64,000 bases of DNA, taken from the NCBI RefSeq assembly GCF_013003965.1, contig NZ_CP053069.1:186001-250000 (forward strand), in the 5' to 3' direction. Positions 3,485 through 59,476 of this stretch are shown here, piece by piece (position 1 is the stretch's first letter; each line of letters begins with the position of its first letter). The notes beneath the pieces are model-generated. The model saw only the letters and a program-made list of their open reading frames with translations, was not told the DNA's origin and ran no database searches. The position numbers and the translations under genes were made by a program. This DNA is from Usitatibacter rugosus. Lineage in GTDB: Bacteria; Pseudomonadota; Gammaproteobacteria; Burkholderiales; Usitatibacteraceae.

Positions 3485-3503
3485 CGACTAAAGAAAAGCA
3501 TAT

Positions 3504-3636
3504 GAACCACGGAGAACACGGAGAACACGGAGGAAAAGCCAAAGCAGGATGATTCGTGGCGGCGACATTGGGCCCTTCGCGATCCATTCAGATTGCCTTT
3601 GCTTTTCCTCCGTGTTCTCCGTGTTCTCCGTGGTTC
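3504..3636. repeat. Inverted repeat, CCACGGAG family, 36-bp arms
   Basis: Perfect 36-bp arms at 3504-3539 and 3601-3636, separated by 61 bp. The arms contain the phased units CCACGGAG, AACACGGAG, AACACGGAG and GAAAAGC. It fills the space between the regulator and the 5-oxoprolinase and ends only 10 bp before the latter's ATG, so the leader of that gene is made of this repeat. A related inverted repeat lies at 14844-15028. Confidence 0.85.
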
Positions 3637-3646
3637 AATCCGGGTT

Positions 3647-11454: not shown

Positions 11455-11467
11455 ATCCGTCATTCCC

Positions 11468-11568
11468 GCGAAAATAAATGGGGTCAGACTCCAATTAAGT
11501 TAATTCCTCCGATGCGGTGTTCCGCATCCGAATTAACTTAATTGGAGTCTGACCCCATTTATTTTCGC
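11468..11568. repeat. GGGTCAGAC-family palindrome, 38-bp perfect arms
   Basis: Arms at 11468-11505 and 11531-11568 are perfect inverted copies that start GCGAAAATAAATGGGGTC and continue through CAGACTCC and an AT-rich tail. The 25-bp centre holds a second hairpin (GATGCGG-TGTT-CCGCATC). It begins 13 bp after the purH stop and ends 34 bp before purD. The folded RNA could end or separate the purH and purD messages. It is the longest member of the family in this window. Confidence 0.9.
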
Positions 11569-11602
11569 GCGGGGGAGACGAAATGGGGAGCGTCGGGAAG
11601 CA

Positions 11603-14843: not shown

Positions 14844-15028
14844 AACCCTTCGGAACCCCTTGAACCACGGAGGCACGGAGACACGGAGGGCCACGGGAAA
14901 ATCTTGTAGGGAAATCGATTCAAGCGATCGCGACTCACCTCCGCTCGCATCCCTCACGATCGCACAAGCATTCCTCCGTGGCCCTCCGTGTCTCCGTGCC
15001 TCCGTGGTTCAAGGGGTTCCGAAGGGTT
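14844..15028. repeat. Inverted repeat, CCACGGAG family, 53-bp perfect arms
   Basis: Arms at 14844-14896 and 14976-15028 are perfect inverted copies. They begin AACCCTTCGGAACCCCTTG and continue with CCACGGAGG, CACGGAGA and CACGGAGGG units; 79 bp lie between. The element fits exactly between the convergent stops of hemF (14839) and the DUF1330 gene (15029). It could act as a terminator in both directions. It shares its CCACGGAG core with the repeat at 3504-3636. Confidence 0.9.
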
Positions 15029-17991: not shown

Positions 17992-20327
17992 TGGCCGTCC
18001 GCAGCCTTCGCGCGCGCATCGCCATCCTCTTCCTGGTCCTGCTGGTCCTGGTGCAGGGAATCGCCGCGGTGCTGGTGACGCGCGCCAATGGGCAGGTCGC
18101 ACGCGAGACGATCGACGCCGCGCTCCTGCAGGGCGAGCGCGTGTTCCAGCGGCTGCTGGCGCAGAACCAGGCACGCCTCGAGCAGGGTGCCGCCATCCTC
18201 TCGGCGGACTTCGCGTTCCGGCAGGCCATCGCGACGGGCGACGCGGACACCGTGACTTCGGTGCTGCGCAACCACGGGGCGCGCCTGGGCGCGAGCGCGA
18301 TGATGCTGATCTCGCTCGACCGTGTCGTGCGCGCGGATACGCAGGATCGTGCGCGCACCGGCAGACCGTTCCCGTTCGGAAGCCTCATCGAAGAGGCCGT
18401 GAACGAAGGCAAGGCCACGGCGATCGTGGTGCAGGGCGAGCGTCCCTACCAGCTCGTCGTCGTACCGGTGCTGGCGCCGGATGCCATCGCGTGGGTCGGC
18501 CTGGCGTTCGAAGTAAACGACGAGTTCGCGCGCGAGATGAAGGGTCTCACGGGCCTGGAGGTCTCGTTCGTCGGGCGGACGGCGCATCAGGCGCCATGGC
18601 GGTTGTATGCCTCGACGCTCGGGACTGAAGCGCGCGCTGCGCTCGCCGCGGCGCTGCCCGCCGAAGGCTTCGCCGGGCTCACGCGCGAGCTCGAGGTCGC
18701 GGGTGTGCCCTACGAGACGCGCGAGAGCGACCTTCGCACCGCGACGGGCGTGCCGATCGTGGCGGTGCTCCAGCGCCCGCTCGCCGAGGGGCTGCTGCCT
18801 TTCCGGCGCATCGACAACATCTTCGTCGGCCTCGCCATCGCGTCGCTCGTCACGCTGGCCCTCGGCAGCCTCGTGATCGCGCGCGGCATCACCGGGCCCA
18901 TGCAGCGCCTGGCCGACGGGGCCAAGCGCATCCAGCAGGGCGACTACTCCCGTCCCGTGGAGGTCGAGCACAAGGACGAGATCGGCGAGCTCGCGGTGGG
19001 CTTCAACCACATGCTGGACGGCATCAAGAGCCGGGAGCGCGAGATCCTGCGCCTGGCCTACGAGGATGGCCTCACGGCGCTGCCCAACCGCGCGATGTTC
19101 AACGTGCAGCTCGAGCAGGCGGTGCTGACCGCCAAGCGCATCGAGGAGCCGCTCACCGTGATGCTGCTCGACCTCGACCGCTTCAAGGCGATCAACGACA
19201 CGCTGGGACATCCCGTGGGCGACCAGGTGCTGCGCGAAGTGGGGCTGCGCGTGCGCGCGGCGTTGCGCGAGTCGGACGTGGTCTCGCGCCTGGGCGGCGA
19301 TGAGTTCGCGGTGCTGCTCGCCACGGGCGACGCCGAGAGAGCGCCGCAGGTCGCGATCAAGATCCTCAAGGCGCTCGAGCAGCGCCTCGTCGTGGACGGC
19401 CAATCGATGGACCTGGGTGCGAGCATCGGCATCGCGACGTTCCCGCAGCATGGCTCGGACCCTGCGGCACTGCTGCGAGCCGCCGACGTCGCCATGTACG
19501 TCGCCAAGCGCAACAAGGGCGGGTATGCGATCTACGATCCGGGCCACGACGAGCGCCGCCGCGAGCACCTCACGCTGCTGGGGGAGCTTCGCCACGCCGT
19601 CGAGCACGACGAGCTGGTCCTCCACTACCAGCCGAAGATGACGCTCGCGACGATGAAGGTCGGCGCGGTCGAGGCCCTGGTGCGGTGGGACCATCCGGTG
19701 CGCGGCTTCATCCCGCCCGGCGAGTTCGTGCCCTTCGCCGAGCAGACGGGATCCATCGGCGCCATCACGCATTGGGTGCTGCGCCGAGCCGTCCACCAGT
19801 GCGCGGTGTGGCACCGGCAGGGGCTGCAGCTTCGCGTGTCGGCGAATGTCTCCGCGCGCGACCTTCGTACCGGAGAGTCATTGGTGGAAACGCTGGCGAA
19901 CGCACTGCGCGTCGAGGAAGTGCCCGCATCGCTGATGTGCCTCGAGATCACGGAGAGCGGCCTCATGGAGGATCCTTCGAGCGCGCAGGCGACGCTGCGG
20001 CGCATCCGCGACCTGGGCGTGGCGACCTCGATCGACGACTACGGCACCGGCTACTCGTCGCTCGCCTACATCAAGCAGCTGCCGGTGAACGAGCTCAAGA
20101 TCGACCGCGCATTCGTGGCGGGGATGGAGGTCGACGACCGCAACGCCGCCATCGTGCGCTCCACGATCGAGCTGGGCCACAACCTCGGCTTGGTGGTCGT
20201 CGCGGAAGGCGTCGAGACCGACCACGAGCTGGCGAACCTCCAGCGCTTCGGCTGCGACATGGCCCAGGGATACCGCTTCGCCCGGCCCATGCCCGCGGCC
20301 GACCTCGAAGCCTGGCTGAAGAAATAA
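17991..20327 (+). CDS. Membrane GGDEF/EAL cyclic-di-GMP protein with HAMP
   Basis: A 778-residue inner-membrane signalling protein. Transmembrane helix 1 is at about residues 9-28, a periplasmic Cache-like sensor follows to about 280, then transmembrane helix 2 (FVGLAIASLVTLALGSLVIA) and a HAMP domain (GPMQRLADGAKRIQQGDYS). The diguanylate cyclase domain has an intact GGDEF motif (SRLGGDEFAVLL). The phosphodiesterase domain has VEALVRW, CLEITESGLMED, SIDDYGTGYSSLAYI and LKIDRAFV, so both activities are possible by motif. It is coupled to the cupredoxin gene. Its last codons and stop lie in a GGGTCAGACC palindrome. Confidence 0.93.
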   Translation: MAVRSLRARIAILFLVLLVLVQGIAAVLVTRANGQVARETIDAALLQGERVFQRLLAQNQARLEQGAAILSADFAFRQAIATGDADTVTSVLRNHGARLGASAMMLISLDRVVRADTQDRARTGRPFPFGSLIEEAVNEGKATAIVVQGERPYQLVVVPVLAPDAIAWVGLAFEVNDEFAREMKGLTGLEVSFVGRTAHQAPWRLYASTLGTEARAALAAALPAEGFAGLTRELEVAGVPYETRESDLRTATGVPIVAVLQRPLAEGLLPFRRIDNIFVGLAIASLVTLALGSLVIARGITGPMQRLADGAKRIQQGDYSRPVEVEHKDEIGELAVGFNHMLDGIKSREREILRLAYEDGLTALPNRAMFNVQLEQAVLTAKRIEEPLTVMLLDLDRFKAINDTLGHPVGDQVLREVGLRVRAALRESDVVSRLGGDEFAVLLATGDAERAPQVAIKILKALEQRLVVDGQSMDLGASIGIATFPQHGSDPAALLRAADVAMYVAKRNKGGYAIYDPGHDERRREHLTLLGELRHAVEHDELVLHYQPKMTLATMKVGAVEALVRWDHPVRGFIPPGEFVPFAEQTGSIGAITHWVLRRAVHQCAVWHRQGLQLRVSANVSARDLRTGESLVETLANALRVEEVPASLMCLEITESGLMEDPSSAQATLRRIRDLGVATSIDDYGTGYSSLAYIKQLPVNELKIDRAFVAGMEVDDRNAAIVRSTIELGHNLGLVVVAEGVETDHELANLQRFGCDMAQGYRFARPMPAADLEAWLKK

Positions 20328-20405
20328 TTAGGGTCAGACCCTTTTTTCCGTCGTCGGCCTCGAGGCCGACGCTGGCGGAATAAAGGGTCTGACCCTAATT
20401 ATTTC
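20321..20405. repeat. GGGTCAGACC-family palindrome at convergent gene ends
   Basis: 24-bp perfect arms (20321-20344 and 20382-20405) starting GAAATAATTAGGGTCAGACC, with an inner hairpin (GTCGGCC-TCGA-GGCCGAC). The last two sense codons and the TAA of the GGDEF/EAL gene lie inside the left arm. The right arm ends 17 bp from the stop of the opposite Ser/Thr kinase gene. It is a likely two-way terminator. Confidence 0.88.
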
Positions 20406-20421
20406 TCCTTTATTCCCCTGC

Positions 20422-24909: not shown

Positions 24910-24927
24910 GACAGTGATGGGAAAAAG

Positions 24928-25062
24928 GCTTTGCAACCGCCGATCCCCGCCGATCGTTCGCCAATATCCGCCGATGAAGGGATGGGTCGCGTCTCGATGA
25001 CGCCATTCTCCAAGCTCCTATCGGCGGCCATCGGCGAACGATCGGCGGGGATCGGCGGTTCC
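24928..25062. repeat. Gene-less copy of the GxxExxY-associated inverted repeat
   Basis: 41-bp inverted arms at 24935-24975 and 25020-25060 with four mismatches. Each arm begins AACCGCCGATCCCCGCCGAT and ends GCCGAT. The left arm is preceded by GCTTTGC, as at the complete element at 27015-27487. The 44-bp centre has no gene. It sits between livG and livF, 18 bp from the livF start. A frame starting ATGA at the livG stop (25082) stays open through the whole insert to livF and encodes a PPIPADRSP-type peptide. Confidence 0.88.
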
Positions 25063-25078
25063 GGGGTGATTCTCAGAA

Positions 25079-27014: not shown

Positions 27015-27487
27015 GCTTTGGAACCGCCGATCCCCGCCGATCGATCGCCGATGGCCGCCGATCAAAAGCGGTGAACGAGACGGCGAACCTCCAGGCGCCT
27101 TTGCCCGAAGTTGAGAAGAAGACAGACGCGATAGCCCGTGGCGCGAAGATAGTTGATGCACTGCGCACGATCCACTCGGGTCAGGAAGTCCGAGACCTTG
27201 AGCTCGACGATGATCTCGTTGTCCACGACCAAGTCCGGAATGTACTCCCCCACCACCGTTCCCTCGTACTCGACCAGCACGGAGCGCTGTTGCTCGACCG
27301 GCACTGCCGACCTCGCGAGCTCGACGCACAGCGCATTTTCGTAGACCTTCTCCAGGAACCCGCAACCCAGCTTCGTGCTGACCTTCTGGGCGGCCCCGAT
27401 GATCTTCCGCGACATCGCATCGAGTCGCTCTCGATCCATATCGGCGGGAATTGGCGGCAGATCGGCGGGGATCGGCGGTTCCAAAGC
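27015..27487. mobile_element. 473-bp inverted-repeat element carrying a GxxExxY gene
   Basis: 41-bp terminal inverted repeats lie at 27022-27062 and 27440-27480, both starting AACCGCCGATCCCCGCCGAT; with GCTTTGG outside each, the ends extend to 27015 and 27487. The interior is filled by one gene on the minus strand. The element separates livH from livM, which are otherwise adjacent in such operons, so it looks inserted. A gene-less relative with the same arms sits between livG and livF. No transposase is encoded; whether the GxxExxY protein moves the element is untested. A duplicated target site was not evident by eye. Confidence 0.75.
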
Positions 27488-27496
27488 ACTTTCCAT
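27062..27496 (-). CDS. GxxExxY family protein (PD-(D/E)XK nuclease-like)
   Basis: A 144-residue protein of the GxxExxY family. The name motif is GFLEKVY in KLGCGFLEKVYENALCVEL. Nuclease-fold residues fit VGEYIPDLVVDNEIIVELKVSDFL (Asp, then Glu-x-Lys) and CINYLRATGYRVCLLLNFG. Known members average about 130 residues and have no proven role. The first 19 residues (with PPIPADLPPIPAD) are encoded by the terminal repeat; a shorter start at position 27439 (MDRERLDAM) matches usual family N-termini but lacks a ribosome site. It is transcribed with the liv operon. Confidence 0.85.
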   Translation of the reverse strand: MESALEPPIPADLPPIPADMDRERLDAMSRKIIGAAQKVSTKLGCGFLEKVYENALCVELARSAVPVEQQRSVLVEYEGTVVGEYIPDLVVDNEIIVELKVSDFLTRVDRAQCINYLRATGYRVCLLLNFGQRRLEVRRLVHRF

Positions 27497-49013: not shown

Positions 49014-49076
49014 GGGGTCAGACTCCCATTCGCAGTCCCATGATTCGGACAGAAACGCGAATGGGAGTCTGACCCC
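49014..49076. repeat. GGGGTCAGACTCC-family palindrome, 20-bp arms
   Basis: Perfect arms at 49014-49033 and 49057-49076 (GGGGTCAGACTCCCATTCGC and its inverse), 23 bp between. The right arm shares its last base with the stop codon of the VOC gene, giving TAGGGGTCAGAC on that strand. It lies between the convergent ends of the lipoprotein and VOC genes. Confidence 0.88.
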
Positions 49077-59379: not shown

Positions 59380-59476
59380 AACGAATAAAGGGGTCAGACC
59401 ACTTCATTCGTCTCGGTTCAACCCGGCGAGGGCCGGGCAACGAGGCGAATGAAGTGGTCTGACCCCTTTATTCGTT
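59380..59476. repeat. GGGTCAGACC-family palindrome, 36-bp arms
   Basis: Arms at 59380-59415 and 59441-59476 with one mismatch (AACGAATAAAGGGGTCAGAC, continuing CACTTCATTCG), 25 bp between. It separates the convergent receiver and histidine-kinase genes. The stop codon of the kinase gene (TAA at 59468-59470) lies inside the right arm. Confidence 0.9.

Follow-up and report, generated by a model that had tools for sequence, protein, structure and literature searches.

The DNA studied here (the window) is a 64,000-nucleotide stretch of the Usitatibacter rugosus genome (G000, one contig of 4.56 Mb; window G000:C1:186001-250000). It carries a GxxExxY gene whose neighbours are two genes for PF02653 permeases, livH and livM, one on each side, and the reported splitting of this pair by the gene was confirmed. 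The gene is bounded by inverted arms, as stated in the preliminary description. They measure 48 nt each and are 88% complementary, with a perfect outer stem of 28 bp, and each arm is a row of CGCCGAT heptads spaced by 10-11 bp (Table 1). The element holds no transposase, in line with the first account.

Table 1. Heptad arms, palindromes and GxxExxY gene of the window (positions in the window)
Feature	Position	Strand	Remarks
Gene-less palindrome	3503-3637		CACGGAG heptads spaced by 9 bp; 37-bp perfect arms
Gene-less type B palindrome	14844-15028		CACGGAG heptads; 53-bp perfect arms; locus-specific outer stem
Gene-less palindrome	24925-25066		Same CGCCGAT arms as the gene-bearing element; livF-livG gap
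Left arm of gene-bearing element	27015-27062		Inverted repeat; outer stem GGCTTTGG and four tandem CGCCGAT-type heptads
GxxExxY gene	27062-27496	-	PD-(D/E)XK nuclease fold; 144 aa (longest ORF); TIGR04256, PF13366, structure model
Right arm of gene-bearing element	27440-27487		Inverted copy of the left arm; perfect outer 28-bp stem shared with it

The window protein matches TIGR04256 with 131.8 bits (cut-off 35), covering profile positions 2-116 of 116, and PF13366 with 130 bits (cut-off 22), which upholds its original assignment to the PD-(D/E)XK-like GxxExxY proteins. PF13366 was the sole family in a Pfam scan of the protein at E 0.01, which thus gave no tyrosine (HUH) transposase. The structure model (pLDDT 89.1) has a restriction-endonuclease-like fold with PD-(D/E)XK enzymes as top structural matches. 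No Rpn- or TnsA-type match was present among the structure-search matches listed, and no significant sequence relative was found among solved structures (best E 0.14). Residues E49, D88, E98 and Q112 are invariant in 111 GxxExxY proteins and K100 is found in at least 90% of them. The PD-(D/E)XK active site of the window protein is intact and nuclease activity is predicted. The gene is under purifying selection, with dN/dS values of 0.04 to 0.27 in the 9 informative pairs out of 10, dS being high in most of them.

The right arm is read in frame (PPIPADLPPIPAD) if the longest ORF is used; an ATG at 27439, directly inside this arm, is a candidate alternative start and could be the true one. The earlier observation that the arm is translated into the amino terminus of the protein is thus correct for the longest ORF. 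It was rejected as a general trait, since the reading frame stays open over the full length of the upstream arm in 50 of 101 arm-bearing loci. A role in defence was also discarded: PADLOC models gave 0 families at E 0.1 for the two GxxExxY proteins tested, and PHROGs matches were weak (E 0.028 and 0.068). GxxExxY relatives comprise 4 in viral contigs and 7 plasmid records, and none was found in phages; GxxExxY is therefore not a typical phage gene, and the hypothesis of phage or plasmid cargo was abandoned.

The preliminary description overlooked the gene-less CGCCGAT palindrome located 2 kb from the gene-bearing element, as well as the two palindromes of the window built from other heptads (Table 1). 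Membership of a known RNA family was rejected for these structures, Rfam at gathering score giving nothing but tRNA in the window. Hairpins of the GGGGTCAGACTCC/GGGTCAGACCC kind are found in the window at 11467-11569, 20320-20406, 49014-49076 and 59380-59476. They resemble the GGGGWSAS terminal inverted repeat (TIR) motif reported for tyrosine transposases, and a related palindrome lies at the B1 junction in G023, a genome of the same genus.

The core of the window arm (type A) has 26 matches with at most three mismatches in the 4.56-Mb genome, and the reversed pattern has 0, so the copies are not due to chance. A search for further arm copies, proposed at the outset, was thus fruitful. The matches compose 11 inverted pairs, one of which is the window element and 10 of which are gene-less and enclose 100-233 bp. 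The genome of U. rugosus codes four GxxExxY genes, each between inverted arms and each with a different arm sequence; three of these four gene-linked types (A, B and C) were searched genome-wide. Type B (CACGGAG) yielded 39 matches and 19 pairs by pattern, one of them with a gene (L027), and two more pairs by BLAST, for a total of 21 pairs of which 20 lack the gene. Type C (CGCAGAT) yielded 61 matches distributed over 28 short pairs, one with a gene (L030) and 27 without, one pair spaced by 2.2 kb and 3 single arms. The reversed controls of types B and C gave 0. In the congener G024 the start of its own arm type has 46 forward and 47 reverse matches (0 and 1 in the control), forming 45 pairs; 44 of these measure 81-164 bp, and the remaining one, of 632 bp, contains the gene L092. 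Each arm type searched features one gene copy and many gene-less palindromes. Since most arm copies have no gene, the multiplying unit is the palindrome. The initial proposal of a nuclease-bearing mobile element stands for the existence of further copies and of an empty site in a relative; it does not hold for most copies, which lack the gene and multiply as palindromes. No transposase was found inside the listed arm pairs of G000 and G024.

Two type A and C loci have an unusual organization. The type C arms 2.2 kb apart (L354 1850-4112; G000:C1:3228349-3230612) enclose a 681-aa ORF, the sole other cargo seen, whose product resembles by eye a secreted beta-propeller protein; a terminator-like GGGCGCCCGAAGGCGCCC hairpin is present inside each end of this pair. 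At L008 (G000:C1:2408061-2408293) a second palindrome, made of CACAGAT heptads, is nested in the loop of a type A palindrome.

The liv operon allows comparison of the same junctions in relatives. The gene and its arms are found between livH and livM in nine genomes of the GTDB family (G000, G024, G005, G001, G008, G004, G006, G002 and G012), and therefore this copy was often inherited in place. An empty livH-livM site, whose search in relatives had been suggested, exists in G023, where the junction measures 8 bp. The arm thus has further copies and the gene is not a constant occupant of this gap devoid of repeats. Seven genomes of the family carry a gene-less palindrome between livF and livG; the gap is 33 bp in G023, 18 bp in G004 and 42 bp in G012. 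The heptads vary from one species to another. The two liv gaps agree in arm type in G000, G001, G005 and G006 (CGCCGAT) and in G008 and G002 (CACGGAT); the arm types of the two gaps differ in G024.

Other junctions show the same variability. G000 and G024 share a 14-kb syntenic stretch of 82% identity with a C site that is occupied in both genomes; the site is empty in G023. At the B2 site, which is occupied in G000, the gap measures 265 bp in that genome and 44 bp in G024. The A site at a fabZ/lpxA-like junction has CGCCGAT arms in G000 and, positioned at the identical base, CACAGAT arms in G024. In G023 the fabZ/lpxA-like junction (L362 3376-3631) harbours a different palindrome with GTCATCCTGAGGG... 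arms. Only 1 of the 21 type B sites of G000 coincides with any of the 45 pairs of G024, which are of B' type, and a BLAST search for type B copies in five congeners gave none among the best 40 first-look candidates per genome. The palindrome type at a given junction can change from one species to the next, and junctions thus gain and lose palindromes. This pattern fits preferred insertion sites as well as in-place replacement.

The association between GxxExxY genes and arms extends far beyond the genus. Arms were scored against a threshold of 14.5, the 99% point of a null distribution built around pseudo-genes and measured in 80 all-phyla loci, which 6 of 721 null places exceeded. Arms above this null flank 133 of 162 distinct GxxExxY loci from many phyla, and 29 loci are without them. 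The gene is present in 12 of the 28 genomes of the GTDB family, with 21 genes in all, 19 of which have arms above 14.5; the two others are L093 (14.0) and L107 (10.0). L107 (G024:C1:2927041-2927367) is a GxxExxY relative without arms in whose sequence, read by eye, the active-site D and K are gone; its upstream context is like that of L029 and it may be a decaying ortholog. The order sample gave 56 of 63 loci above 14.5, all outside the GTDB family and with the weak matches G054, G066 and G203:C3 left out. The all-phyla scan gave 59 of 79, or 54 of the 70 with both flanks of at least 200 bp. These all-phyla loci are the best 80 of 564 confirmed, ranked by likeness to the window protein and therefore mostly of T type (defined below), less L108, which is the same locus as L103. 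They include records from Planctomycetes, Acidobacteria, Desulfobacterota-like bacteria, Chloroflexi, Ignavibacteria and Methanosarcinales. Several of the genomes compared are incomplete drafts. A cross-locus control, in which the left flank of one locus was paired with the right flank of another, placed 976 of 6320 pairs above 14.5; it underestimates the signal because heptads are common to the arms of different loci. On the 21 family loci this control is inflated by orthologous flanks and the pseudo-gene null was used instead.

Arm heptads fit the consensus CRCNRAK and fall in two types. T type heptads (ending in AT) have a 10-bp spacing in 189 of 223 gaps; for G type heptads (ending in AG) the spacing is 8 or 9 bp in 78 of 105. 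When the T/G label is placed on a tree of 125 proteins, 86 of them labelled, it requires 1 change, compared to a mean of 20.4 for shuffled labels (0 of 500 as low). A larger tree (159 rows, 112 labelled) requires 2 changes against 35.3 (again 0 of 500 as low); it includes L415-L419, translated across frameshifts, and the second change may stem from those rows. Within the T type, heptad and protein distances are correlated (Mantel r 0.374, reached in 0 of 5000 permutations; 0.365 with GC removed). The correlation is weaker within the G type (r 0.25, 23 of 5000 permutations). CACGAAT arms accompany one protein group drawn from several phyla, and one genome contains both T and G types (L027 and L028), showing that the relation is not only a species effect. 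On these trees and distances the spelling of the arms varies with the GxxExxY protein. The early suggestion that end and gene evolved together is supported by this joint variation, seen both with the tree label and in the Mantel tests.

The presence of gene and dispersed arms was then compared over 300 genomes of the order, each at least 90% complete. The GxxExxY gene was detected in 46 of them at E 0.001, 44 of which are over the cut-off. An exact three-heptad T pattern occurs in 33 genomes, its reversed control giving 0 in all 300, and a three-heptad pattern of both types preceded by AACC occurs in 54 genomes (1386 matches versus 5 in the control). The gene is present in 26 of the 33 genomes with at least 10 heptad-arm matches in either scan and in 20 of the 267 others (Fisher p 7e-19). 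Heptad arms and the GxxExxY gene co-occur across genomes, with exceptions on both sides: seven of the 300 genomes have at least 10 arm matches and no gene detected (G023, G040, G087, G121, G150, G184 and G290), and 8 of the 46 gene-bearing genomes have zero matches to either pattern. G023, assembled in one contig, has 46 T-type heptad-arm matches and no GxxExxY gene was found in it; this genome is a candidate for palindrome decay following enzyme loss.

Dispersed arms resemble those of the genome's own gene more (0.61) than those of genes from other genomes (0.38; 0 of 20000 permutations, 19 genomes). The own genes provide the best match in 9 of the 19 genomes and not the best in 10, and in six (G135, G094, G313, G266, G113 and G149) they match below the mean of the others. 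This comparison used 1-3 hand-chosen listed strings per genome, excluding strings at gene loci (all those of G142 and one of G061).

Traces of the mechanism of spread were sought in the copies themselves. Fifteen type B copies have arms 98.6-99.3% identical, and their loops are 66% identical versus 57% after shuffling; loops of types A and C are barely above shuffled identity. The outer stems of type B are site-specific (score 7.7 for a copy's own flanks and 3.5 for mismatched ones, 0 of 20000 permutations), with pairing up to 27/27 bp, an excess that is absent from types A and C. Such stems are compatible with an element that enters at the tip of a hairpin already present, and also with one flank having been copied from the other. 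Beyond the family consensus, the paired arms of a copy showed hardly any compensatory change, a weak signal at most (permutations as good out of 10000: B 10000, A 3367, C 374). The target-site duplication that the preliminary description proposed to look for gave no clear signal: types A and C gave no signal and type B gave 0.56, compared to 0.55 for the 95% point of permutations, with element ends that are approximate. Together these features suggest a palindrome- or single-strand-based process rather than DDE cut-and-paste.

GxxExxY genes and heptad palindromes very likely form one genetic unit in many lineages. The reading preferred for the locus, to which we attribute a probability of roughly two in three, is that it represents the copy that carries the gene in a family of mobile palindromic repeats, within a system that resembles REPIN/RAYT and is run by an unrelated nuclease. 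The GxxExxY nuclease itself probably recognises and disseminates the heptad palindromes. According to this model the protein would recognise tandem heptads in the arm type that belongs to it, probably while the palindrome is in extruded or single-stranded form, and would cut there as a PD-(D/E)XK nuclease. Cutting would allow short palindromes bounded by arms of this kind to be copied into further intergenic positions. The gene-less palindromes would multiply in this way and one copy per arm type would retain the gene, as for RAYT genes and REPINs. Binding to the arms, their cutting and the driving of spread by the gene are steps that we infer from the features described above.

A different division of labour would make the gene a passenger or a homing gene: another enzyme acting in trans, for example a RAYT or TIRYT tyrosine transposase, would move the palindromes, and GxxExxY would have settled inside them and would target their arms. 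The hairpins of the GGGGTCAGAC type, which are similar to the GGGGWSAS motif as given in the available text of PMC3733652, would be in keeping with such an enzyme, being found in the window and at the orthologous junction of G023, and so would the 7 of 300 genomes with many arms and no gene. A homing gene should, however, convert gene-less copies, yet there is one gene per type (three types in G000 and one in G024). The listed arm pairs of these two genomes lack a transposase, the 681-aa ORF being their sole other cargo, and arm spelling follows the tree of the GxxExxY protein itself. The passenger hypothesis is accordingly considered unlikely.

Two other explanations dispense with most of the mobility. 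The palindromes could be selected chromosomal sites, such as mRNA hairpins, terminators or domain marks, serviced by GxxExxY as a processing or repair nuclease of the host. Conserved arms with drifting loops, the occupation of identical operon junctions by such palindromes in several species and purifying selection on the gene are all compatible with this role. It is made improbable by the single B site out of 21 in G000 common to the 45 B'-type sites of G024, by B2 and C sites that are empty in a relative and by the restriction of the gene to just 46 of 300 genomes of the order. In a concerted evolution in place, elements would rarely move; the nuclease would cut them and repair from other copies would homogenise their arms to the specificity of the gene. 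The exchange of CGCCGAT (G000) for CACAGAT (G024) at the same base of the fabZ/lpxA-like junction is what such a process would produce, as is the concordance of both liv gaps in G008 and G002 (CACGGAT) and in G001, G005 and G006 (CGCCGAT). Against it, the two liv gaps of G024 differ in type, and the sharing of 1 out of 21 B sites implies that most B copies arose separately, leaving concerted evolution very little credit. Dissemination of the palindromes by the GxxExxY nuclease is thus retained as the preferred explanation.

A broader proposal, towards which the evidence leans somewhat, is that a widespread class of palindromic mobile DNA in bacteria and archaea has GxxExxY proteins as its dedicated mobility enzymes. 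These proteins would be stand-alone PD-(D/E)XK nucleases reading CRCNRAK tandem heptads with no known transposase chemistry, parallel and unrelated to RAYT/REPIN, and with a readable protein-to-heptad code. If so, a family that is named (TIGR04256/PF13366) and functionally blank would acquire a role, a large number of genomic palindromes that are now unexplained could be assigned to an enzyme, and nucleases of a class whose usual task is to cut or trim DNA would turn out to drive a transposase-free mobile element. The way in which heptad types divide along the protein tree is a natural data set for DNA recognition by a nuclease core of 115 residues. How gene-less palindromes spread in genomes, an old question, becomes directly testable, and the joint change of nuclease and repeats across distant microbes suggests that a kind of mobile DNA has so far gone unrecognised.

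PD-(D/E)XK enzymes that process DNA include Cas4, lambda exonuclease, Hjc and TnsA of Tn7, and we know of none that is the sole gene of a mobile palindrome. Cas4, lambda exonuclease and Hjc have no significant sequence relationship to GxxExxY (best E 0.14 among solved structures). The MITEs of DDE insertion sequences are short non-coding copies with TIRs, which depend for their movement on an enzyme encoded by a longer copy and supplied in trans. The gene-less palindromes share with them their short non-coding nature and terminal inverted repeats. They differ in that no DDE transposase lies between the arms of the pairs listed in G000 and G024, no clear target-site duplication was found, and the arms are near-identical and the loops drifted.

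The open-access literature, in the portions available, has passing mentions of GxxExxY (PDDEXK_3, PF13366/TIGR04256) and does not link it to repeats or mobility. TIRtrons, as presented in the accessible part of PMC3733652, are served by a tyrosine transposase (TIRYT) and have a shared TIR motif, GGGGWSAS. Long terminal inverted repeats flanking the gene and some moderately abundant families are features in common with the system described here. The GGGGWSAS motif is unlike the CRCNRAK heptads, and the TIRtron enzyme is a tyrosine transposase (PMC3733652, same part). Neither the enzyme class nor the design of the arms appears to match a palindrome mobility system that is known or was found in the open literature.

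The closest parallel is with REPINs and RAYTs. In the available text of PMC2817692, every RAYT gene is reported to lie between two REPs in inverted orientation and to co-evolve with them, the presence of RAYT genes correlating with REP abundance. As far as the accessible parts of PMC2817692 and PMC3116915 go, the resemblance has several aspects: the gene lies between inverted palindromes and the genome holds many gene-less inverted doublets; repeats and gene co-vary and presence of the gene tracks repeat abundance; and orthologous genes are found in one place with flanks that have changed and are nonetheless palindromic. The differences are in the enzyme, here a PD-(D/E)XK nuclease in which Pfam detects no tyrosine transposase, and in the arms, here tandem heptads near one helical turn apart instead of single REPs. 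A GTAG tag was not seen at element ends by reading of the loci inspected. The GxxExxY system works like a REPtron but is not one, its enzyme being unrelated.
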